Origin: Lysobacteraceae bacterium | GTDB taxonomy: Bacteria > Pseudomonadota > Gammaproteobacteria > Xanthomonadales > Wenzhouxiangellaceae | Reading direction: 5' to 3' | Assembly: GCA_020201235.1 (NCBI GenBank) | Contig: JAIVHD010000236.1 | Span: 1 to 13,748 of the forward strand | DNA length: 13,748 nucleotides | Shown: piece by piece, positions 3 to 12,304 of the stretch | Position numbering within the stretch: position 1 is the stretch's first letter | Layout of the letters: the number at the start of each line of letters is the position of its first letter | Notes under the pieces: generated by a model | The model's database searches: none | Told to the model about the DNA's origin: nothing | Seen by the model: only the letters and a program-made list of their open reading frames with translations | Position numbers and translations under genes: made by a program

Positions 3-1694
3 TTGATGATGGATCGCTCTGGCGACGAGATTTCTGAAGCGATTACTGATCGATTCTCGCGCGGCGATCGGTGCATCACAGCTCGGGATAACCATGGCAA
101 CATTCTTCACTCGCGCTGGCTAACTCAAAAACCGACACTTATCCCCGAGCTCAATCTGCATGTAGCACCGACCCGTCAGCAACTCTACATGTATGACGGT
201 TATAGCCGCGCCGAGGCGCGCCGGCAGGGAATCGACAGTGCAATGCGCAAGTTCATCTTTCAGATGTCACGTGACGAAGGCATACGCGAGGTTATTTCTT
301 ACGTCTACAGTCAAAATCCGACGGGTATCAAGGCAGTCCAGAAACTGCAGGAAGAGGTAGGCAGCATCCGCTTTATCAGGCTGTTTCAGCGGTGGTGCCT
401 GGTTTTCGGCCGACGCAGGCTAAACCAACGAGTGACGCTGCTGACCGACGCAGCGCTCAGGCGCACGCAAGAGGCATACCAGCAGCGTTCCCATGCACTC
501 AAGCAGTGGTTCGAGAGCTGGCTGAGTCAACCCATGGATCGGCGCTCGACCGGCTTTTCGGCCTTGCCAGAGAGTTGCTTTCAATTGACTGCAGACCACA
601 TCATAAGCACCCTGGCCTTGGACCGAAACCGTGACGAGGTGCTCGACGTCGGCTGCAGCAGCGCCGTCGTCAGCCGGTACGTTGCGCCATACAGTCGTCG
701 CTTTCATGGCATTGATGCCACTGCTGGTTTGATCGCCGATATCGACACCGATTCAATCGTTACCGGCAGCGGGGAGCCGGTACGCTTTTCAGTGGCCGAT
801 GGGCGCAAACTACCGTTCCCGGAACATGCCTTCGACAAAGTTTACTGTTCCGGGGTGCTTCATATGCTGCCATCGCACGGGGATGCCACAATTATGGTTG
901 AGGAAATGATTCGAGTCTGCTCGGCCGGCGGCAAGATCCTGCTGGCTGCGGTACCGGACTCGGCCAAGAGCAAGAAGGGACGATGGCTGGCCTGGCGCCG
1001 TTCCAACCTGAGCGGCAAGCTCAGGCTGACGGCGGCAATGGTAACGCCACGGCCGTTGCGTCGTCTCGCGCAGACAGCTGGCCTCATCCAGAAAAATCCA
1101 GTGGCTTTTCTGGAATTTGACCTGCAGGCCCTCAAGTCATCTTACGAATCACGCGGATTCCACTGCCAATTGCTCGATTATCCCGGCAACTACTGGAGCA
1201 GGGATTTTCGCACGTCACGCTCCAATTTCGTCATCACCAAGCCACGTAGCCTATCTGGTGGGCGCCGCCAAACATTCAGTCATTCTCACAGCGTGACTGA
1301 GTCTACCCATCCGTTTCGTTCACCGTCAGGCCGCGCTCACCGGCCAGCTTGCGCCATCATGAATCAAGGCCCGGTAGGACGAATTTTGATCAAATGGGCG
1401 CTTCAGCCAGGGCACGCCCCAACGGTGGTGGCGCAGTCGGGCCTCAGCCAGCGCGGCGTCAGCACGCGCCTGCTCTCCCCGGGAATCCCGCTGCAAACGA
1501 ATCCATGGCACTTCAAACAGGCCGGGCAGGCGTTGATCCAGGGCATCGAGCAGCACTCGCGACTGATCATCGAGGGGTCCCCGGCCACGCAGCAACCGCG
1601 CCAGACGCAACCGGTCGGCAAGCAGGGTCTTGCTCAATCCCAACACGGGTGCCAATCCAAAGGTGCCACGCTGTGCCTGAATGCGAATCGATAG
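3..1694 (+). CDS. GNAT acetyltransferase-SAM methyltransferase fusion, 5' partial
   Basis: The reading frame is open to the window edge, so the true start is probably upstream; the TTG/ATG codons at 3-11 give no reliable start. Residues about 20-130 resemble a GNAT N-acyltransferase: an acidic Tyr-rich strand, then ARRQGIDSAMRKF, the acetyl-CoA loop region, and a conserved SQNP segment. Residues about 210-400 are a class I SAM-dependent methyltransferase: motif I is VLDVGCSSAVVS, the acidic residue ending strand 2 is in HGID, and ADGRKLPFPEHAFD followed by SGVLHML are the later motifs. Substrates cannot be told. The recognisable protein ends near residue 415 (FVITKP, about position 1250). The remaining ~145 residues are rich in Gln, His, Arg and Pro, and from 1326 on they run antisense through the convergent DUF6817 gene, so the tail looks like read-through after a lost stop codon. 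Domain calls are fairly sure; the 3' end is not. Confidence 0.7.
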   Translation: MMMDRSGDEISEAITDRFSRGDRCITARDNHGNILHSRWLTQKPTLIPELNLHVAPTRQQLYMYDGYSRAEARRQGIDSAMRKFIFQMSRDEGIREVISYVYSQNPTGIKAVQKLQEEVGSIRFIRLFQRWCLVFGRRRLNQRVTLLTDAALRRTQEAYQQRSHALKQWFESWLSQPMDRRSTGFSALPESCFQLTADHIISTLALDRNRDEVLDVGCSSAVVSRYVAPYSRRFHGIDATAGLIADIDTDSIVTGSGEPVRFSVADGRKLPFPEHAFDKVYCSGVLHMLPSHGDATIMVEEMIRVCSAGGKILLAAVPDSAKSKKGRWLAWRRSNLSGKLRLTAAMVTPRPLRRLAQTAGLIQKNPVAFLEFDLQALKSSYESRGFHCQLLDYPGNYWSRDFRTSRSNFVITKPRSLSGGRRQTFSHSHSVTESTHPFRSPSGRAHRPACAIMNQGPVGRILIKWALQPGHAPTVVAQSGLSQRGVSTRLLSPGIPLQTNPWHFKQAGQALIQGIEQHSRLIIEGSPATQQPRQTQPVGKQGLAQSQHGCQSKGATLCLNANR

Positions 1695-3524: not shown

Positions 3525-5810
3525 TCAGGCGCGGGCTGGCGCTTCGGCCGTGACCGAGCCGACGGGTGCTGATTCGGCCCGTCCGCCGCGCCACAGGCCA
3601 AACACGAACCAGGCCAGCAATGCACCGCCGCCGGCAAAGATGATGTCGCCGGGCACCCGCATCCAGACCATGGTTTCCATCCACGTCGAATGGATGATTT
3701 CGGGCGAACGCGCGTACCACAGGCCCTCGGTGATCGACCAGTAGGCCTGGTAAACGCCGGCCGGCAGCAGCGAGCCGAACACCATGGCGGCAAGACCGAT
3801 GTTGAGCATCCAGAATGTCGGTTTCAGCAACCGGCTGTTCCAGGCCGAATCGCGGGTCAGGCCGCGCAGCCCGAACAGCAGCAATCCGATGCCGAGCATG
3901 CCGTAGACGCCGAACAACGCCGCGTGACCATGGGCCGGCGTGGTGTTCAGGCCCTGGATGTAATAAAGCGATATCGGCGGGTTGATCAAAAAGCCGAGCA
4001 GGCCGGCACCGACCAGGTTCCAGAACGCCACGGAGACGAAGAACAGGATCGGCCATTTGTAGCGCTGCACCCAGACCGCGGCCTTGCGCAACTGGAAGTT
4101 TTCATAGGCCTCGAAGCCGATCAGCACCAGCGGCACCACTTCCAGCGCCGAGAATACCGCCCCGACCGCGATCACCGAAGTAGGCGTGCCGGCGAAGTAC
4201 AAATGGTGCAAGGTCCCGAGTATGCCGCCCAACAGGAAAATGATGGTGGCAAACAGCGTCGCATGGGTTGCAAGCTGCGCACGAATGAGCCCCATTCGAG
4301 TGAACAGCAGCGCAACCACCGCGGTGGCGAAGACCTCGAAGAATCCTTCGACCCACAGATGCACCACCCACCAGCGCCAGTAGGTCACCATCGACAAGTG
4401 GGTGTGCTTGCCCCAGGTCAGACCGGCGGCGTAGAACAGGCCTATGGCGATGGTCGACAGGAACAGGATGGTGATCAGTGCGCGGTTCTCGGAAGGCTGT
4501 TTCAACGCCGGCCACAGCGAGCGGGCAACCAGCGCAAGCCAGATCATCAGCCCGACAAACAGCAGGATCTGCCAGAAGCGGCCCAGGTCGACGTATTCCC
4601 AGCCCTGGTGGCCGAGCCAGAAGTTGGTGTCCAGGTCGAAGCGCTGCATCACGCCGAACCACTCGCCGGCCATGGACCCCACCACGACGACCAGCAGGGC
4701 CACGTAAAGCACGTTGACGCCAAGCGTCTGGAATTTCGGCTCATGCCCCGAGATGGCCGGCGCCACGTACAGGCCGGTGGCCAGCCAGGCCGTGGCAATC
4801 CAGAACACGCCGAGCTGGGTATGCCAGGTGCGCGCGACCGAGTACGGCAACCATTCGGACAGGTTGAAGCCGTAGAAACCGTGGCCTTCGACCGCGTAGT
4901 GGGCGGTAATCATGCCCATCAGCATCTGCGCGATGAACAGCGCGACGACGGTATAGAAGTACTTGGCGACCGCACGCTGCGATGCGGTCGGGTTCGACGA
5001 TAGCAGCGGATCGGAGTTGGGCGGCGTCGGAAGCTCCCCTTCGTGTTTCGTCGCCACGTAATACCAGCACAGCGCGCCGATACCGGCCAGCAGCAGGATG
5101 ATGGACGCCATGGACCACATTGCCGTACCGGTGGTCGGGCTATTGCCCACCAGCGGTTCGTGCGGCCAGTTGCTGGTATAGGTGATATCGCTGTCCGGGC
5201 GTTCGGTGGTCGCCGCCCAGGCGGCCCAATGGAAGAACGCCGGCATCAGTTCGCGATGCTCGACCGAGCTGATCGCATCGTTGGCGATTGCGTATTGCTC
5301 GCGTAGCGATTCCTGCTCGGCGCCGTTGCCGAACAGATCACGGTAGTGAGAATGCACCTGCGCTATCGCTTCGGCCCGTTCGCTGGAAACTGTGATGCTT
5401 CCGGTCTGCGGATCGTAGGTGTTGGTTCGCATCTCGCCGACCAGTCTCGCTTTCAACCCGGCCTGGGCCTCGGGCTCGAGTCGGTCGAATTCAATTCCGT
5501 ACTGCTGTTTCGACCAGATATCGAGCAGCGCCACGGCCTCGCGATGGAGCCAGTCGGCCGACCAGTCGGGTGCCACGTAGGCCCCGTGTCCCCAGACCGA
5601 GCCGACCTGCTGGCCGCCCAGGGTCTGCCAGACCTGGCGCCCGCGCTGGATATCGTCACGCGTGTAGATGAGGTCGCCGTCTTCGCTGACAACCGTCTCC
5701 GGTATCGGTGGCATTTCGCGATAGATCTCGGAACCGATCAGCAACAGCGCGCCGAACGAAACGACGAACATCACTCCCAGAACCCACCACAGGCGTCGCG
5801 TCGGATTCAT
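3525..5810 (-). CDS. norZ: Quinol-dependent nitric oxide reductase, single subunit (qNor)
   Basis: This inner-membrane enzyme reduces two NO to N2O with electrons from quinol. The 761 residues match the family's usual length. An N-terminal helix (about 8-27) anchors a periplasmic cytochrome-c-like domain that, as in all qNors, lacks a CxxCH heme-binding motif. The catalytic domain of about 12 helices follows from about residue 230. Expected metal ligands are all present: His330 (low-spin heme b, TWHTQLG), His484 and Glu488 (HLWVEGFFEVF; non-heme FeB), His535-His536 (LGTLHHLYFAGTP; FeB), and His627/His629 (PAHGHAALFGVYG; heme b3 and heme b). The ATG at 5810 has a strong AAGGAG (minus strand of 5818-5823) seven bases away. 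The gene is a single transcription unit with its own NsrR-controlled promoter and terminator, divergent from the DUF454-nnrS-nsrR run. Nothing looks damaged. Confidence 0.96.
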   Translation of the reverse strand: MNPTRRLWWVLGVMFVVSFGALLLIGSEIYREMPPIPETVVSEDGDLIYTRDDIQRGRQVWQTLGGQQVGSVWGHGAYVAPDWSADWLHREAVALLDIWSKQQYGIEFDRLEPEAQAGLKARLVGEMRTNTYDPQTGSITVSSERAEAIAQVHSHYRDLFGNGAEQESLREQYAIANDAISSVEHRELMPAFFHWAAWAATTERPDSDITYTSNWPHEPLVGNSPTTGTAMWSMASIILLLAGIGALCWYYVATKHEGELPTPPNSDPLLSSNPTASQRAVAKYFYTVVALFIAQMLMGMITAHYAVEGHGFYGFNLSEWLPYSVARTWHTQLGVFWIATAWLATGLYVAPAISGHEPKFQTLGVNVLYVALLVVVVGSMAGEWFGVMQRFDLDTNFWLGHQGWEYVDLGRFWQILLFVGLMIWLALVARSLWPALKQPSENRALITILFLSTIAIGLFYAAGLTWGKHTHLSMVTYWRWWVVHLWVEGFFEVFATAVVALLFTRMGLIRAQLATHATLFATIIFLLGGILGTLHHLYFAGTPTSVIAVGAVFSALEVVPLVLIGFEAYENFQLRKAAVWVQRYKWPILFFVSVAFWNLVGAGLLGFLINPPISLYYIQGLNTTPAHGHAALFGVYGMLGIGLLLFGLRGLTRDSAWNSRLLKPTFWMLNIGLAAMVFGSLLPAGVYQAYWSITEGLWYARSPEIIHSTWMETMVWMRVPGDIIFAGGGALLAWFVFGLWRGGRAESAPVGSVTAEAPARA

Positions 5811-5880
5811 GCTTTTTCTCCTTGAAAATTCCTGATAATCAGAGGCCGGTCAATGGCCAGCCGTCGGGCATCGACGACTT

Positions 5881-5903
5881 AAGATGTATTCTACATACCT
5901 TTA
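5881..5903. promoter_or_regulatory. Putative NsrR operator 1 (norZ side)
   Basis: This is a 23-bp site of the 11-1-11 NsrR type (known half-site AAGATGCATTT). The left half reads AAGATGTATTC, a strong match; the right half is weaker, with 6 of 11 symmetric positions kept. It covers the norZ -10 hexamer, the position expected for repression. Confidence 0.65.
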
Positions 5904-5916
5904 TGCTGAATGTGTA
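5888..5916 (-). promoter_or_regulatory. Predicted sigma70 promoter of norZ
   Basis: On the minus strand, TACACA (5911-5916) and TAGAAT (5888-5893) are separated by 17 bp, giving a start near 5881 and a leader of about 70 nt to the norZ ATG. It overlaps the divergent promoter almost completely. Confidence 0.55.
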
Positions 5917-5920
5917 TACT
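5892..5920 (+). promoter_or_regulatory. Predicted sigma70 promoter of DUF454-nnrS-nsrR
   Basis: TATACT (5915-5920) is a good -10; a weak -35 (TACATA, 5892-5897) stands 17 bp upstream. A start near 5927 leaves a short leader of about 25 nt before the ATG at 5952. Confidence 0.5.
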
Positions 5921-5931
5921 AAATGCATCTT
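5909..5931. promoter_or_regulatory. Putative NsrR operator 2 (DUF454-nnrS-nsrR side)
   Basis: In this second 23-bp NsrR-type site the right half AAATGCATCTT is the exact consensus half-site, while the left half (AATGTGTATAC) is weaker. The site covers the -10 hexamer of the plus-strand promoter. nsrR lies downstream in the same direction, so this would close an autoregulatory loop. Confidence 0.7.
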
Positions 5932-5951
5932 GAACTCCGGGCTCGTCTGAC

Positions 5952-6350
5952 ATGATTGACATCAGCATGAAACTGCATCCGACATCGATACTGGGCTACA
6001 GGGTACTGGCAGTATCCGCACTCAGCGCCGGAACGCTGGGCCTGCTGCTACCATTGCTGCCGACCACACCGTTCATACTGGTCGCGCTTTGGGCGTCCGC
6101 GCGCGGCGCGCCGAAATTGCACGAAAAGATTCTCACCCACCCGCGGTTCGGTCCATCGGTCCAGGCCTGGCAGACACAGCGTGCGGTATCGAGCCGGGCC
6201 AAGTGGCTGGCCTGCTCGATGATGACTGTAAGCTGGTTTGGGCTTTGGCTGAGCGATGTGCATTCGGGCATTCTGGCGGCGCTGGCGGTCCTGTTCGTCG
6301 CCGTTGCCACTTACCTGCTTGCCCGCCCCGAACCCGTGGAGTCGTCCTGA
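5952..6350 (+). CDS. DUF454 (YbaN-like) small inner-membrane protein
   Basis: The 132-residue protein matches the DUF454/YbaN family: a first membrane helix with GLLLPLLPTTPFILVALWASA (shown here by its core LPLLPTTPF), the following PKLHEKILTHPRFGP segment, a basic loop around residues 75-85, and two closely spaced C-terminal helices (about 87-125). The family has no firm biochemical function; in other proteobacteria it is often found near respiratory and NO-response genes. It is the first gene of a run with nnrS, with which it shares one base (TGATG), and nsrR. No good Shine-Dalgarno precedes the ATG at 5952, nor the alternative ATG at 5967, so the start is uncertain by five codons. The proposed NsrR operator 2 lies just upstream. 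Confidence 0.85.
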   Translation: MIDISMKLHPTSILGYRVLAVSALSAGTLGLLLPLLPTTPFILVALWASARGAPKLHEKILTHPRFGPSVQAWQTQRAVSSRAKWLACSMMTVSWFGLWLSDVHSGILAALAVLFVAVATYLLARPEPVESS

Positions 6351-7519
6351 TGCAGATCTTCCGGACCGTGTTTGCGGCGGGTTTTCGTCCGTTCTTTTCC
6401 GCGTGCGCACTTTATGCCATCGTCTTGATGACCGCCTGGATTGGCGTGTTCACGTTTGGCTGGAGCATGGCCGGGTCGCAGCCGAACAACTGGCATGCCC
6501 ATGAAATGATCCACGGCGTGGTCGTCGCCGCGATTGCCGGCTTTTTGCTGACCGCGGTGCCCAAGTGGACCGGGACCCGGCCGGTGGCCGGTGCCCCGCT
6601 TGCACTGCTATGGCTGCTCTGGCTGGCCGGCAGAGTGGTCTTCTGGGTCACCGACACCGGTGCGGCGAACCCGGCCGGCCGGATCGCCGAAGGCATCGAT
6701 CTGCTGTTTCTGCCGGCACTGGCCCTTGCCATGGCCTGGCCAATTGTGAAAACCGGCAACCGGCGCAACCTGCTGATCGTGGTTGTGCTTGCCGCACTGT
6801 TCGCGACCAACCTGATGCAGGGATTCGCGCCGCTGGCGCAAAAAGCGAACATCCTGGCGCTGGACCTTGTGTTGCTTTTGATGGCCATCATCGCTGGCCG
6901 GATCGGCCCGGCATTTACCCGTAACTGGCTGCTCAAACGGGGACTCAACGCCAAAGCAGTCCGGGTTCATGGCTGGTTGGATATTCTGGCGCTGGCGCTG
7001 ATCGTCGTGCTTGGCCTGGCAACGCTGTTTTCCGCCCCGGCACAGATTGTCGGCACGATCGCCCTGGCTGCGGGTCTGGCCCACCTGGCCAGACTGCTCG
7101 ACTGGCAGGGCTGGCGCGCCTGGCGCGATCCGCTGGTCTGGGTGCTGCACTTGGGTTATGCCTGGATCGTGGTCGCGCTGCTGCTGCGCGGTATCGCCAG
7201 CCATACTTTCGCACTGCCAGCCAGCACATGGATACATGCACTCGGCGTCGGTGCCATGGGCACGCTGATACTCGGCGTGATGGCACGCGCCACGCTGGGC
7301 CACACCGGCCACGAATTGCGACTGCCGCGAGGTGGCTGGATCATGTTTGTATCGATAGCCATCGCGGCAATCGCGCGCATTGGCAACGCAATCGGGGGCT
7401 TCGATCACGGCTTTGCGCTGACGCTGGCCGGCCTGGCCTGGATCGCCGCGTTCGCCCTGTTCGGTTTGCTATTCTTTCCCAAACTGCTGCGCCCGCGCAT
7501 CGACGGCCACCCGGGCTGA
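6350..7519 (+). CDS. nnrS: NnrS family NO-response membrane protein
   Basis: NnrS is a heme- and copper-containing polytopic inner-membrane protein that helps cells withstand NO-derived stress; its exact reaction is unsettled. The 389-residue product shows the family marks in order: GFRPFF near the N-terminus, NNWHAHEMIHG (about residue 48, likely metal ligands), AGFLLTAVPKWTG, LLWLAGR, AGRIGPAFTRNWL, and the C-terminal HALGVGAMGTLILGVMARATLGHTGH. It has about 12 hydrophobic segments. The frame is open further upstream, but the start at 6350 is chosen because it gives the conserved N-terminus, overlaps the DUF454 stop (TGATG) and has GGAG (6338-6341) eight bases before it. It is co-transcribed with DUF454 and nsrR and is a common member of NsrR regulons. 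Confidence 0.94.
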   Translation: MQIFRTVFAAGFRPFFSACALYAIVLMTAWIGVFTFGWSMAGSQPNNWHAHEMIHGVVVAAIAGFLLTAVPKWTGTRPVAGAPLALLWLLWLAGRVVFWVTDTGAANPAGRIAEGIDLLFLPALALAMAWPIVKTGNRRNLLIVVVLAALFATNLMQGFAPLAQKANILALDLVLLLMAIIAGRIGPAFTRNWLLKRGLNAKAVRVHGWLDILALALIVVLGLATLFSAPAQIVGTIALAAGLAHLARLLDWQGWRAWRDPLVWVLHLGYAWIVVALLLRGIASHTFALPASTWIHALGVGAMGTLILGVMARATLGHTGHELRLPRGGWIMFVSIAIAAIARIGNAIGGFDHGFALTLAGLAWIAAFALFGLLFFPKLLRPRIDGHPG

Positions 7520-7550
7520 TCATGCCGCACAGCATCTCGAGGACCCTCCG

Positions 7551-7988
7551 GTGAGACTGACCCAATACACTGATTTTTCAATACGCGTCCTGATCTATCT
7601 CGGGCTGCATCCGGATCGTCGCTGCACCATCCAGGAAATCGCCGAAGGCTACGGCATCTCGCGCAATCATCTAATGAAAGTGGTGCAACAACTGGCCGGC
7701 TCCGGTTTCGTCGTCTCGGCGCGCGGCAGCGGCGGCGGCCTCACACTGCCGCGCTCCCCCGAGCAGATCAATTTAGCCGACGTCGTCGCCGAGATGGAAC
7801 CCGATTTCGCCATGGTCGAGTGTTTTCGCGACAACAATGAATGCGTGATTACCCCGGCCTGCCGACTGCCGCCGATGCTGGCCCGCGCCACGCGTGCCTA
7901 TCTCGATGTATTGCGCGGCTACACGCTGGCCGACCTGCTCGACAAGCGCGATGCAGCAAAGATGAAGTTGCTGCTCAGATCGAGCTGA
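7551..7988 (+). CDS. nsrR: NsrR, Rrf2-family NO-sensing repressor
   Basis: NsrR is a dimeric transcription repressor whose iron-sulfur cluster is destroyed by NO, which releases its operators. The 145 residues include the winged-helix start (MRLTQYTDFSIRVLIYL), a recognition region around ISRNHLMKVVQQL, the Gly-rich wing (RGSGGGL), and the three cluster cysteines Cys91, Cys98 and Cys104. Asp8, a cluster ligand in characterised NsrR, is also present. The GTG start at 7551 has GAGGA (7539-7543) seven bases upstream and gives the canonical N-terminus; the ATG at 7522 is out of frame. It lies 31 nt after nnrS and is probably in the same transcript. The proposed operators at 5881-5931 and 9998-10020 are its likely targets, including its own promoter. 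Confidence 0.95.
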   Translation: MRLTQYTDFSIRVLIYLGLHPDRRCTIQEIAEGYGISRNHLMKVVQQLAGSGFVVSARGSGGGLTLPRSPEQINLADVVAEMEPDFAMVECFRDNNECVITPACRLPPMLARATRAYLDVLRGYTLADLLDKRDAAKMKLLLRSS

Positions 7989-8065: not shown

Positions 8066-9292
8066 ATGTCGTTCACCTGGCCGAAATATCGATTGCTGGC
8101 CGCAGCACTGATGCTGACCACAGGCAGCTCGGCCGCAGATGACAGCCTGGCTGGAGCGTTGCGCCAGAGCCAGTGGGGCCTGGATTTCCGTCACCGGATT
8201 GAACGGGTTGAAGAAAGCGGTTTCGCCGAAAACGCCGAGGCCTCCACGCTGCGCACCCGGCTGAACCTCAAGACCGGAAGCTACAACGGGCTGCAGGCGT
8301 TCATTGAGTTCTCCGATGTGCGCGAGATTGTGTTCGACGACTTCAACGCCGGCGCGGGCGCCTCGCCCGACCGCGCCCGCTTTCCCGTGGTCGCCGACGC
8401 CGAGGACACGCGCATCAATCAGGCCTGGCTGGGTTTGTCGCCTGATGACAGGCTTGCGATGCGGGCCGGGCGCCAGCGCATCAAGCTCGACAACGACCGC
8501 TTCGTCGGCAATGTGGGATGGCGCCAGAACGAACAGACCTACGACGGCGCCAGCCTGGAATGGCAGCAGGATCGGTGGAAACTGTTCTACAGCTATGTCG
8601 GTCATGTCAACCGGATTTTCGACAGCGCAGTGCCGGCCGGCGATCACGACCATGACACCCATCTGGTCAATGCATCGTTCAGAGTCGCCGACGGCCATAC
8701 GCTTGTCGGCTATCTCTACAACATCGAGGACGAGGACCAGCAGGCGCTGTCGAATCGCACCTTCGGGCTGCGTTATTCGGGTACCACAACGCTTGGCGCG
8801 GACCGGCCTGTGAACTGGCTGGCCGAGTATGCGCACCAGGTCGAAGCCGGCGACAACGCGACCGATTACGACGCCGATTATTTCCACCTGCGCGTCGATC
8901 TGGGGCTGGAGCCGCGCTTCAAGCCCGTCGTCGGCTTTGAACGCCTCGGAGGCTCGCGCAATACAGGCGAGGCCTTTCGAACACCCTTGGCCACGCTGCA
9001 TGCGTTCAACGGCTGGGCCGATCGTTTTTTGGCCACGCCGGACCGCGGGCTGGACGATTTCTACGCCGGATTCACGGGCAACCAGGGACGATTCGGCTGG
9101 AATTTAACCTGGCATCGGTTCCGGACCGAGACCGGCAGCACGACGCTGGGCGATGAATTTGACGGTTCGCTTTCAGTGAAGCTGCATCGGACCCGCTCGC
9201 TGCTGGTCAAAGTAGCCCACGTGGCCGAAGATGATCCCGCCCTGCGCGGCGTGACCAAATTCTGGTTCATGTTCACTCTGGCACTGCCGTGA
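8066..9292 (+). CDS. Outer-membrane beta-barrel porin, alginate-export (AlgE-like) family
   Basis: The 408-residue protein has a clear signal peptide (basic start, hydrophobic LLAAALMLTTG, cleavage near SSA-AD at about residue 24). Alternating amphipathic strands follow and the chain ends in an aromatic/hydrophobic strand (FWFMFTLALP), as in outer-membrane barrels. Features recalling the alginate-export/OprD-like barrel family include LRTRLNLKTG, the INQAWLGL then GRQRIKLDNDRFVGNVGWRQN segment, and YDGASLEW. The substrate is unknown; alginate is not implied. AAGGAG (8053-8058) precedes the ATG by seven bases. It sits 77 nt after nsrR, with only a weak promoter candidate in the gap, so read-through from the NsrR-controlled run is possible. 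A TlpA-like gene follows closely. Confidence 0.8.
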   Translation: MSFTWPKYRLLAAALMLTTGSSAADDSLAGALRQSQWGLDFRHRIERVEESGFAENAEASTLRTRLNLKTGSYNGLQAFIEFSDVREIVFDDFNAGAGASPDRARFPVVADAEDTRINQAWLGLSPDDRLAMRAGRQRIKLDNDRFVGNVGWRQNEQTYDGASLEWQQDRWKLFYSYVGHVNRIFDSAVPAGDHDHDTHLVNASFRVADGHTLVGYLYNIEDEDQQALSNRTFGLRYSGTTTLGADRPVNWLAEYAHQVEAGDNATDYDADYFHLRVDLGLEPRFKPVVGFERLGGSRNTGEAFRTPLATLHAFNGWADRFLATPDRGLDDFYAGFTGNQGRFGWNLTWHRFRTETGSTTLGDEFDGSLSVKLHRTRSLLVKVAHVAEDDPALRGVTKFWFMFTLALP

Positions 9293-9339
9293 TCGGCTGG
9301 CCTGGCTTTTTTTCGCGACCTTTTTCGAGACACCCCGAC

Positions 9340-9828
9340 ATGCGCTTCATATCTGGAACAACAATGATGGTTCTGCTTTTTGCCGCAATGCTGAGCCCGG
9401 TTTCGCGAGGCTGGGCCGACGAGAATGCCGAGTTCGATCGCATCGGCGGCGGTACCGAGTCGCTTCTCGATTATCGCGGCCAGACGGTGGTACTCAATGT
9501 CTGGGCGATCTGGTGCGCGCCGTGCATCGGCGAGATTCCCGAACTGGTCGAACTGCAGCGGCGAATCGCACCGCGAAATGCCACCGTTGTCGGCCTCGCC
9601 GTGGATTCCGGCGCCGAGTCCCAGGTGCTGTCATTCTGGCGGCGGCGTTTGGAGCTGGAACCGAGCTATCCGCTGTGGCTGGGCTCGATGGAACAAGCGA
9701 AAGAGCACTTCGGCGCGATCACGGTTCCGCTGACCCTACTGATCGACCGCCAGGGCACGGTTCGCGAACGCCTGCTGGGCGCTCATGACGCCGAGACGCT
9801 GTTGGAGAAGCTCGAACCCCTGCTGTAG
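9340..9828 (+). CDS. TlpA/ResA-like periplasmic thioredoxin
   Basis: This is a secreted or membrane-tethered thioredoxin-fold disulfide reductase, of the kind that keeps apo-cytochrome c or copper-site cysteines reduced. From the ATG at 9340 the 162 residues give a signal sequence (about 1-26, ending near SRGWADE), the redox motif WCAPC (58-62) in the TlpA context VLNVWAIWCAPCIGEIPEL, and the cis-Pro strand ITVPLTLLID near residue 130. A GTG at 9289 overlaps the porin stop and would add 17 residues before the signal sequence; 9340 is preferred because it gives a normal signal peptide, although its ribosome-binding site is weak. Its position between the NO genes and a c-type cytochrome/copper enzyme unit suggests a maturation role, which is inference. 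Confidence 0.87.
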   Translation: MRFISGTTMMVLLFAAMLSPVSRGWADENAEFDRIGGGTESLLDYRGQTVVLNVWAIWCAPCIGEIPELVELQRRIAPRNATVVGLAVDSGAESQVLSFWRRRLELEPSYPLWLGSMEQAKEHFGAITVPLTLLIDRQGTVRERLLGAHDAETLLEKLEPLL

Positions 9829-10070: not shown

Positions 10071-10460
10071 ATGAAACGAATCCAGAACACGCTGCAAAGC
10101 CTGACGACGAGGATCCGGTTTGCTGCTCTCGCCGTCGCAGTAGTCGGCACGGCTTCGCTGGCCGACGAGCCACCGGCAGCCGGTGACAGCGCCGGTGACA
10201 GCGGACAGGCGCTGTACCTGCGCCATTGTGCGAGCTGCCATGGCCCGGCCGGACGCGGCGACGGCCAGGAGGGCCGTGCATTCGAACCGCCGCCGACGGA
10301 CTTCACCGAAGTCGAGCCCGACGCGGCCCGCTTCGAGACGGCCATTCGCGACGGCGGCATGGCGGTCGACAAGGCCGGCACCATGCCGGCATTCCGCCAC
10401 ACACTCGGCGACGAGGAAATTCAGGATGTTGTCGCCTACCTGATGCAACTGCAACGATGA
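10071..10460 (+). CDS. Small periplasmic c-type cytochrome
   Basis: The 129-residue protein has a signal peptide (about 1-31, cleaved near SLADE), one heme c motif CASCH (Cys53, Cys56, His57), and a likely axial Met105 in TMPAF. The C-terminal helix (EEIQDVVAYLMQLQR) is typical of class I monoheme cytochromes. About 25 residues between the signal peptide and the heme motif are Gly/Ala/Asp/Ser-rich. It sits directly behind NsrR-like operator 3 and 41 nt before nirK, so it is probably an electron donor to NirK; this is inferred from position. The ATG at 10071 has no clear Shine-Dalgarno sequence, but it is the only start giving a signal peptide. Confidence 0.88.
   Translation: MKRIQNTLQSLTTRIRFAALAVAVVGTASLADEPPAAGDSAGDSGQALYLRHCASCHGPAGRGDGQEGRAFEPPPTDFTEVEPDAARFETAIRDGGMAVDKAGTMPAFRHTLGDEEIQDVVAYLMQLQR
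10179..10202 (+). repeat. Tandem 12-bp duplication in the cytochrome gene
   Basis: GCCGGTGACAGC occurs twice head to tail, encoding a repeated Ala-Gly-Asp-Ser in the linker between the signal peptide and the heme domain. It looks like a recent slippage-type duplication. Confidence 0.8.
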
Positions 10461-10501: not shown

Positions 10502-12003
10502 ATGAACACAAACAAATCAAGATCATGGCGCGGTGCCGTTACCGGCACCTCACTGGCCCTGCTGGTAGCGCTGGGCTCTGCCGTCGGACTCTACACGCCC
10601 GAAGCCCGGGCATGCGATTCGTGCAACGACACGCTGCTGCACGAGCTGACGCACGAGCGTAGCGGCAGCCTCATGAGCCGCGACCTTCTGGCTGCCATCG
10701 ACAATCAGCGCGGTCTCCCGCTGGAGTCTCTGGATGCCGGCGGCACCGGTTCGGCGGCATCCGCGGCGGCGGCCAAGCTCGACCCGATGTTCGAGGGCGC
10801 GGAGTTCATCGAGGTGATCTCGCGCGACCAAGGCCTGTCGATTCCGGCCACCGGCTTCGTTCCGCAGGACATCGAGCCGGATCACACCTTCAATATCTCG
10901 CTGGACGAGGGCCAGACCTACCTCGGCCAGGGCGTGATGTACGACGGCTTCCTGGCCAACGGCGGTGTTCCCGGCCCCACGCTGCGCGTGACCGAGGGCG
11001 ACGTCGTCAGGATCACGATCACCAACACCGGCACCGTGCCGCATGCCACGCGATACCGATGCACGTGATCTTCGGCCAGTACGGCATGATCGTGGTCGAG
11101 CCGAAAGAAGCGAAATACAAGCTTGAACAGGAACTCGGCAAGAAGCCGGACCTGGAGCTGTACCTGCTGCAAAACGAGTTCTACGCCAGCGGCAGGGACG
11201 CCATCGAGGGCGCGCCGATGTACACGGCATTCAACGGTCGCGTGTTCCGCTACATCGAGGAACCGATTACCGCCAAGCCCGGCGACTACGTTCGAATCAA
11301 CTACCTGAACGTCGGTCCCAATCTCGTATCGACGTTTCATATCGTCGGCATCATCTGGGACTACGTCTACTGGCAAGGGCATCCGGAGGCCTGGATGGCC
11401 GGCGGTCAGACGGTCACCTCGGGCCCATCCGACTCGTGGGTCATCGAGTTCCGCGTACCGCCCGATGAAGGCGCCTACACGATGCTGAGCCACGCGGTGG
11501 GCTCGACCAGCCGCGGCGCGATCGGGTTGCTGGTAGCCGACAAGGACGCAGACACACCGAAGACCGTGCTGGCGGAGGGGCCGAAGTGGTCCGATGACGA
11601 GATGGCTGAAATCGCCGCATCGGCCACGCGCACGATCTCGCCGTTCGCCCCCGGCTCTGCCGGAAAAGGGATGGCCGCACGCGCCGACCGCGTGGTGTCC
11701 TACGGACCGGAGGTCGAGGAAGTAGTGGTCGAAATCATCGGCAACTCCTTCTACCCGAAGGTCATCGAGATCGAGCCTGGAACAAAGGTCACCTGGGTCA
11801 ACGAGGATGTGTTTACCTACCTGGCCGGCGAGTTCTCGGGCGTGCACAATGCGGTGGGCACGCTCGGCCCCAAGCGCTTCGCGACCCCTCTTCTGGGCCA
11901 TGGCGAGAGCGCCAGCGTGGCGTTCGACGAATCGGGTGAATACACTTATATCTGTACGCCCCACCCCTACATGAAAGGCCGCATCATCGTCCGTCAACCC
12001 TGA
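10502..12003 (+). pseudogene. nirK: Copper nitrite reductase-like gene (NirK), broken by internal deletion and frameshift
   Basis: NirK reduces nitrite to NO in the periplasm. The first frame (10502-11068) starts with GAGG five bases before the ATG, encodes a signal peptide, a ~75-residue extension with CDSC (38-41), and the first part of cupredoxin domain 1 up to TVPH181, the usual type 1 copper His. The frame then shifts. From about 11047 the second frame resumes with HAIPMHVIFGQYG and runs to 12003. It contains domain 2 with the type 2 site residues FHIVG (His94 from 11059, cf. His255) and SHAVG (His145, cf. His306), plus an extra C-terminal cupredoxin with its own type 1 set (His263, Cys299, His302, Met305). 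Compared with known NirK, roughly 44 residues are gone at 11042-11050, including the catalytic Asp, two type 2 His ligands and the type 1 Cys. No functional enzyme can come from this sequence as read. The original could also have been a NirK-like multicopper oxidase of other activity. Confidence 0.85.
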
Positions 12004-12015
12004 CGCGCGACCCGT

Positions 12016-12039
12016 AGCCCGGCGGCGATCCGTCGGGCT
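12016..12039 (+). other. Hairpin directly after nirK
   Basis: A 10-bp stem with one G-U pair (AGCCCGGCGG 12016-12025 with CCGTCGGGCT 12030-12039) and a CGAT loop lies 13 nt past the nirK stop. The T-run a terminator would need is absent; the sequence jumps almost at once into azurin coding sequence, so the tail may have been deleted. Confidence 0.55.
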
Positions 12040-12052
12040 CCGATCCCAAGGG

Positions 12053-12304
12053 GTGCTCACCACCGAGGCCGATGCGCAGGCCGCCTACCAGGACGGCATG
12101 CAGGCCGGACTTGACAACGAGTACGTCGAGCCCGGCGATGACCGGGTGATCGCGCACACGAGCGTGGTCGGCGGCGGCGATGAGGTCACCATCACCTTCG
12201 ACACCTCGGCGATGCAAGCAGGCGGCAATTACAAGTTCTTCTGCTCTTTCCCCGGCCATTTCCCGATGATGAACGGCACTTTCGGATTCGGCCAAGAACG
12301 CTGA
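12053..12304 (+). pseudogene. azu: Azurin, N-terminal half missing
   Basis: Azurin is a periplasmic blue copper protein that passes electrons to nitrite reductases, among others. The 83 codons from GTG at 12053 match its C-terminal half well: VLTTEAD, DGMQAGLDNEYVEPGDDRV, IAHTSVVGGGDEVTITFD, and the copper loop CSFPGHFPMM with Cys64, His69 and Met73. The GTG is not a real start; it is the Val of the conserved (W)VL just after the ligand-bearing GHN. Upstream in frame there is only unrelated sequence from the nirK 3' region. The signal peptide, the first ~45 mature residues and the first copper His are therefore lost, and there is no ribosome-binding site of note. It would not bind copper as azurin does. 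Assignment to azurin is firm; the cause of the truncation (deletion or misassembly) is not. Confidence 0.85.

Follow-up and report, generated by a model that had tools for sequence, protein, structure and literature searches.

A split nirK lacking about 130 bp in a draft gammaproteobacterial genome, most likely through an assembly error

The window analyzed here (13,748 bp) makes up the whole of contig C241 in a draft genome that comprises 2,888,667 bases in 439 contigs and is 83% complete. Upstream of nirK, the interval 3525-7988 holds genes for the nitric oxide reductase NorB (3525..5810, minus strand; its N-terminal cytochrome c-like domain is that of PF22085), an NnrS protein and an Rrf2 regulator resembling NsrR. 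All three are full length by profile, and the NO-handling genes are therefore not visibly hit. The plus strand then carries a TlpA/ResA-like thiol-disulfide protein (9289..9828), placed relative to nirK as it is in Alkalisalibacterium limincola, a small c-type cytochrome directly before nirK (10071..10460; intact by profile), nirK itself in two pieces (10502..11068 and 11059..12003) and the remnant of an azurin gene (12053..12304). A terminator-like hairpin 3' of the nirK stop (12013..12042, plus strand) is not stronger than shuffled sequence (z -0.84).

Reading of the ORFs gives nirK as two overlapping frames. The 5' piece, 188 aa as read, matches TIGR02376 over residues 129-182 in a profile search and is conserved as far as VPH (11036-11044), after which a short tail continues to 11068. 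The second frame encodes CHAIPMHV from 11044, has an ATG at 11059 and stays open to 12003; the resulting 3' piece (314 aa) contains the remainder of the two-domain core and a C-terminal cupredoxin domain (PF00127 at residues 230-311, profile search). When both pieces were aligned with 12 homologues, the gap between VPH and HAIPMHV came to 44 codons, and the sequences on either side of it aligned. In the DNA of A. limincola, base 3855 corresponds to window position 11043 and base 3989 to position 11047, so that a net 130 bp is missing at the joint (11044..11047, plus strand), equivalent to 44 codons less two retained bases. Because the net loss is 130 bp, the frame changes. The split nirK and its missing segment are confirmed as real in the deposited sequence. 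An earlier note on this DNA had described a loss of about 44 codons, a change of frame and conserved flanks, and on these three points it was correct.

No direct repeats in 10900-12200 as assembled touch the nirK joint. The earlier note had named GCCA/GCCAC at the junction as possible microhomology; in the DNA of three relatives that was inspected, the segment is not flanked by a GCCAC repeat. A tangle of the assembly graph caused by a conserved repeat was considered and rejected: the missing segment has a mean pairwise DNA identity of 0.836 among 11 relatives, which is ordinary for nirK. Searches at an E value of 0.001 found neither a second nirK nor a displaced piece of nirK in the draft, and no match to nirS or cytochrome cd1 above the cut-off. 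Note that, since the draft is incomplete, these results are no proof of absence from the organism.

The 44-residue segment is present at all 69 relative loci (9 from whole genomes and 60 from GTDB records, with some records probably entered twice). By a strict motif pattern it has exactly 44 residues at 59 of these, and at the remaining 10 the alignment runs across all 44 residues. Proteins were also compared with the intact relative P0008, using 118 homologues drawn from the best 120 of 326 matches. The whole segment is found, without insertion, in 113 of them, and the other five (296-361 aa) start only within the segment or beyond it and seem to be fragments. The earlier note had proposed measuring the gap against intact homologues; this gave 44 residues, and no full-length homologue naturally without the segment, nor any protein with both flanks and no segment, was found among the 69 loci and the 118 proteins from the best 120 of 326 matches. 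A functional short or two-piece NirK that dispenses with the type 2 copper loop might be read into the ATG at 11059 and the 314 open codons that follow it. Such a protein would lack the sensing loop and the Cys-His bridge, both of them part of the missing segment, it would have no counterpart among those 118 homologues, and the azurin break described below would need a separate explanation. We consider it hardly credible.

For the type of enzyme, the comparison was made with TsNirK of Thermus scotoductus SA-01, which PMC6400189 describes as a three-domain copper nitrite reductase in which SerCAT replaces the catalytic Asp and the sensing loop reads His-Gly-Leu-Ser-Ile-His. P0008 matches TsNirK (PDB 6hbe) with 442 bits across the two-domain core and the C-terminal cupredoxin, and shares with it the HGxSIH sensing loop and the Cys-His bridge. 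Among the best 120 of 326 matches, 94 proteins could be placed by pattern, and 93 of these have Ser at the sensing-loop site. The “catalytic Asp” that the earlier note had assigned to the missing segment therefore misfits this NirK group. Judged from their sequences, the window's relatives belong to the TsNirK type of three-domain enzyme, in which the sensing loop carries Ser instead of Asp. The window's own nirK retains a C-terminal cupredoxin domain joined to the two-domain core (PF00127, in the 3' piece), and the Gln of its FGQ, which aligns with a TsNirK Gln, may coordinate type 1 copper in the core. Unlike TsNirK, the window as assembled has no His-x-x-Ser-x-His sensing loop (homologue alignment), no Cys-His bridge linking the type 1 and type 2 copper sites (the relatives' MWHCAPGG stretch is absent) and no single continuous reading frame.

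The A. limincola locus (L027) has the TlpA-like protein, a cytochrome-like stretch, nirK and azurin in identical order, with 86% identity across the 314-aa nirK piece, but A. limincola has both genes whole, nirK at 541 aa and azurin at 157 aa. Values of dN/dS for the 3' piece are 0.110 versus A. limincola and 0.138 versus a second relative (L028), compared with 0.113 between these two, and the piece shows no relaxed selection. The 5' piece, over its final 90 codons, gives dN/dS values of 0.32 and 0.36 versus these two intact relatives and 0.23 between them. Neither nirK piece bears clear signs of prolonged decay.

The azurin remnant (plus strand) covers profile positions 46-48 to 123 of 125 only, with the signal peptide and the N-terminal half absent. 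The stretch from nirK to mid-azurin measures 45 bp in the window versus 332 bp in A. limincola, which places a loss of about 287 bp at a second joint (12007..12050, plus strand). No other azurin match was found in the draft. Two consecutive genes of the window are thus short of sequence, nirK by about 130 bp and azurin by about 287 bp. A true and very recent 130-bp deletion could be proposed from this, leaving nirK as a pseudogene; azurin would have been lost at about that time and NorB kept, so that NO from others is reduced or detoxified. In keeping with such a history, both cuts lie in adjacent genes that likely serve one pathway, the draft has no second nirK and no nirS above the cut-off, and dN/dS of the 5' piece is slightly raised; against it, the 3' piece is without decay. 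If the loss in nirK were biological, one would expect the remaining genes of the draft to be unbroken.

For a survey on this premise, 80 further contigs of the 439 were taken, of which 11 were all N and 69 were readable (510,677 bases). The reference was a same-genus genome, G003 (6 contigs, 99% complete), of which 1.2 Mb was used. A break was scored where a reference gene aligned in two adjacent blocks with bases missing in between. The matched set consisted of 92 genes on 25 draft contigs, with 34,470 aligned residues. N-free internal losses of 20-276 bp were found in 8 of the 92 genes, and their joints were read in the DNA. The losses amount to about 167 bp in InfB (at about 9027-9065 of contig C7; 152 bp in the alignment run), 262 bp in GlnD, 222 bp in NuoL (in frame) and 20 bp in an acetyl-CoA acyltransferase. 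Four more proteins, which we take to be PilY1, an IcmF-like protein, a YceI-like protein and a LysM/M23 protein, have lost 193 bp, 276 bp (in frame), 160 bp and 167 bp, respectively, the last in a variable linker but with a change of frame. In CarB, 43 N stand for about 321 bp; it was counted apart from the eight because its gap carries N, and with it there are nine broken genes on seven contigs. NCBIfam names were obtained for five of the nine (InfB, GlnD, NuoL, the acyltransferase and CarB). InfB has a single match above the cut-off in the draft, and the matches to GlnD are its own two pieces; no other copy of either was found. In the reverse comparison, bases were missing from the G003 part in none of 94 genes (30,657 residues), and all four listed splits were cases of the relative having more.

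These figures come from an enlarged run that gave 14 split rows, of which 9 were kept and 5 dropped. Of the dropped rows, L176 on C3 and three on C40 (L181_1_0_2059, L181_1_0_4986 and L181_1_0_5940) were taken on visual inspection for antisense frames, L181_1_0_2059 mirroring nuoL, and L124 on C7 was considered to extend beyond the gene. A smaller run (40 contigs, 800 kb) had given six split rows in the draft and two in the relative, one of the latter being a 2-bp frame difference in a reverse-strand frame. Contigs provisionally classed as plain had no loss event, in only 11 genes. The sampled contigs have roughly 8 breaks in 103 kb of aligned coding sequence, or about one per 13 kb; this rate is approximate, since a few of the matched genes may be antisense frames. 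At this rate, 1.06 breaks are expected in 13,748 bp, and the probability of two or more is 0.29; two were seen. The breaks in nirK and azurin need no further cause.

It was also considered whether the window is a composite scaffold, from the order and sizes of contigs. The 81 contig sizes contain a decreasing series of 40, whereas 2000 shuffles gave none longer than 21. That series has alternatives, however, and the initial contigs do not follow it, so it was not used as evidence.

The gene infB is indispensable for bacteria. A cell with infB frameshifted and glnD, nuoL and carB cut would hardly be viable, and the draft must therefore hold false losses. Because N-free losses occur in essential genes elsewhere in the draft, the loss in nirK is most likely an assembly error as well. 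We accordingly put a probability of about 0.88 on nirK being intact in the living organism and on the 130-bp loss having arisen during assembly or scaffolding of the draft. Were this so, like losses should occur in essential or conserved genes of the draft and be absent from a well-assembled relative, and both were observed; underestimated gap lengths, which would also be expected, were seen in a single case (carB).

By the same evidence, the true deletion introduced above is unlikely: like losses affect nuoL as well as infB and glnD, neither of which turned up in another copy, and the two breaks of the window fit the background rate. It is quite improbable that nitrite reduction and azurin have only just disappeared together from a gammaproteobacterium that keeps NO reductase and whose remaining sequence has not yet drifted. 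A further possibility is that strains are mixed in the draft, with the deletion present in some cells and the assembler following the short path. Strain mixing is common in metagenome bins, and the source here is a draft of 439 contigs that is 83% complete. Strain variation would not be expected, however, to remove similar lengths from many unrelated genes, infB among them, and we regard this explanation as very improbable.

An error of assembly or scaffolding might have operated as follows. Runs of N sit inside draft contigs, and the one run that could be tested, in carB, is far too short for the true distance. Judging from that single case, the scaffolder may have set gaps about 275 bp too short. 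Gaps of up to about 275 bp would then have been written as zero, with both ends butted together. False joining of this kind would have occurred at least twice in the window, in nirK at 11044-11047 and before azurin at about 12007-12050. Note that the azurin loss, at 287 bp, is slightly larger than 275 bp, its spacing being judged from a different genus.

Spurious pseudogenes created by assembly errors have been described (PMC11017572). As in that abstract, assembly rather than evolution would be breaking genes of unrelated functions; the losses here comprise tens to hundreds of bases, whereas the abstract stresses internal stops.

The earlier note had called the event “recent or artificial”. 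This holds as a pair, with the artificial member now strongly favored, given that infB, glnD, nuoL and others are broken and azurin is cut too. Its account of a loss at the copper center as a biological event finds no support, and its interpretation overall is partly supported. To claim the loss of nirK on the strength of this record alone would very probably be mistaken, the denitrification capacity of this draft would be under-called, and broken or shortened genes in it should not be taken for biology.

Some further observations concern other parts of the window, the draft and the relatives. The 3' piece of nirK is closest to Alkalisalibacterium (86%) and to another Lysobacteraceae genome (84%), with its own family at 76-79%, and it has no match in any of five same-genus genomes. 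Horizontal transfer and a mis-binned contig are offered as alternatives that might account for this affinity. Near the start of the window (1200-1694), a GNAT/methyltransferase-like ORF (3-1694) extends about 370 bp into the antisense of the ORF at 1326-2219, and a third false joint possibly lies near its natural end. A TauD-like ORF was suspected of being cut, but distant relatives are similar in length and no claim is made for it. Elsewhere in the draft, one frame of 1,071 aa on C40 covers two blocks whose spacing in the relative is 241 bp greater (L172); this site, which is separate from the 222-bp loss in nuoL, is probably another false joint. A nirK relative from Verrucomicrobia (L086, 3326-4938) aligns as two abutting blocks at residue 367/368, possibly reflecting a change of frame. 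Note also that the A. limincola cytochrome between the TlpA-like gene and nirK (2627-3323 of L027) seems, from the ORF list, to change frame after its haem motif.
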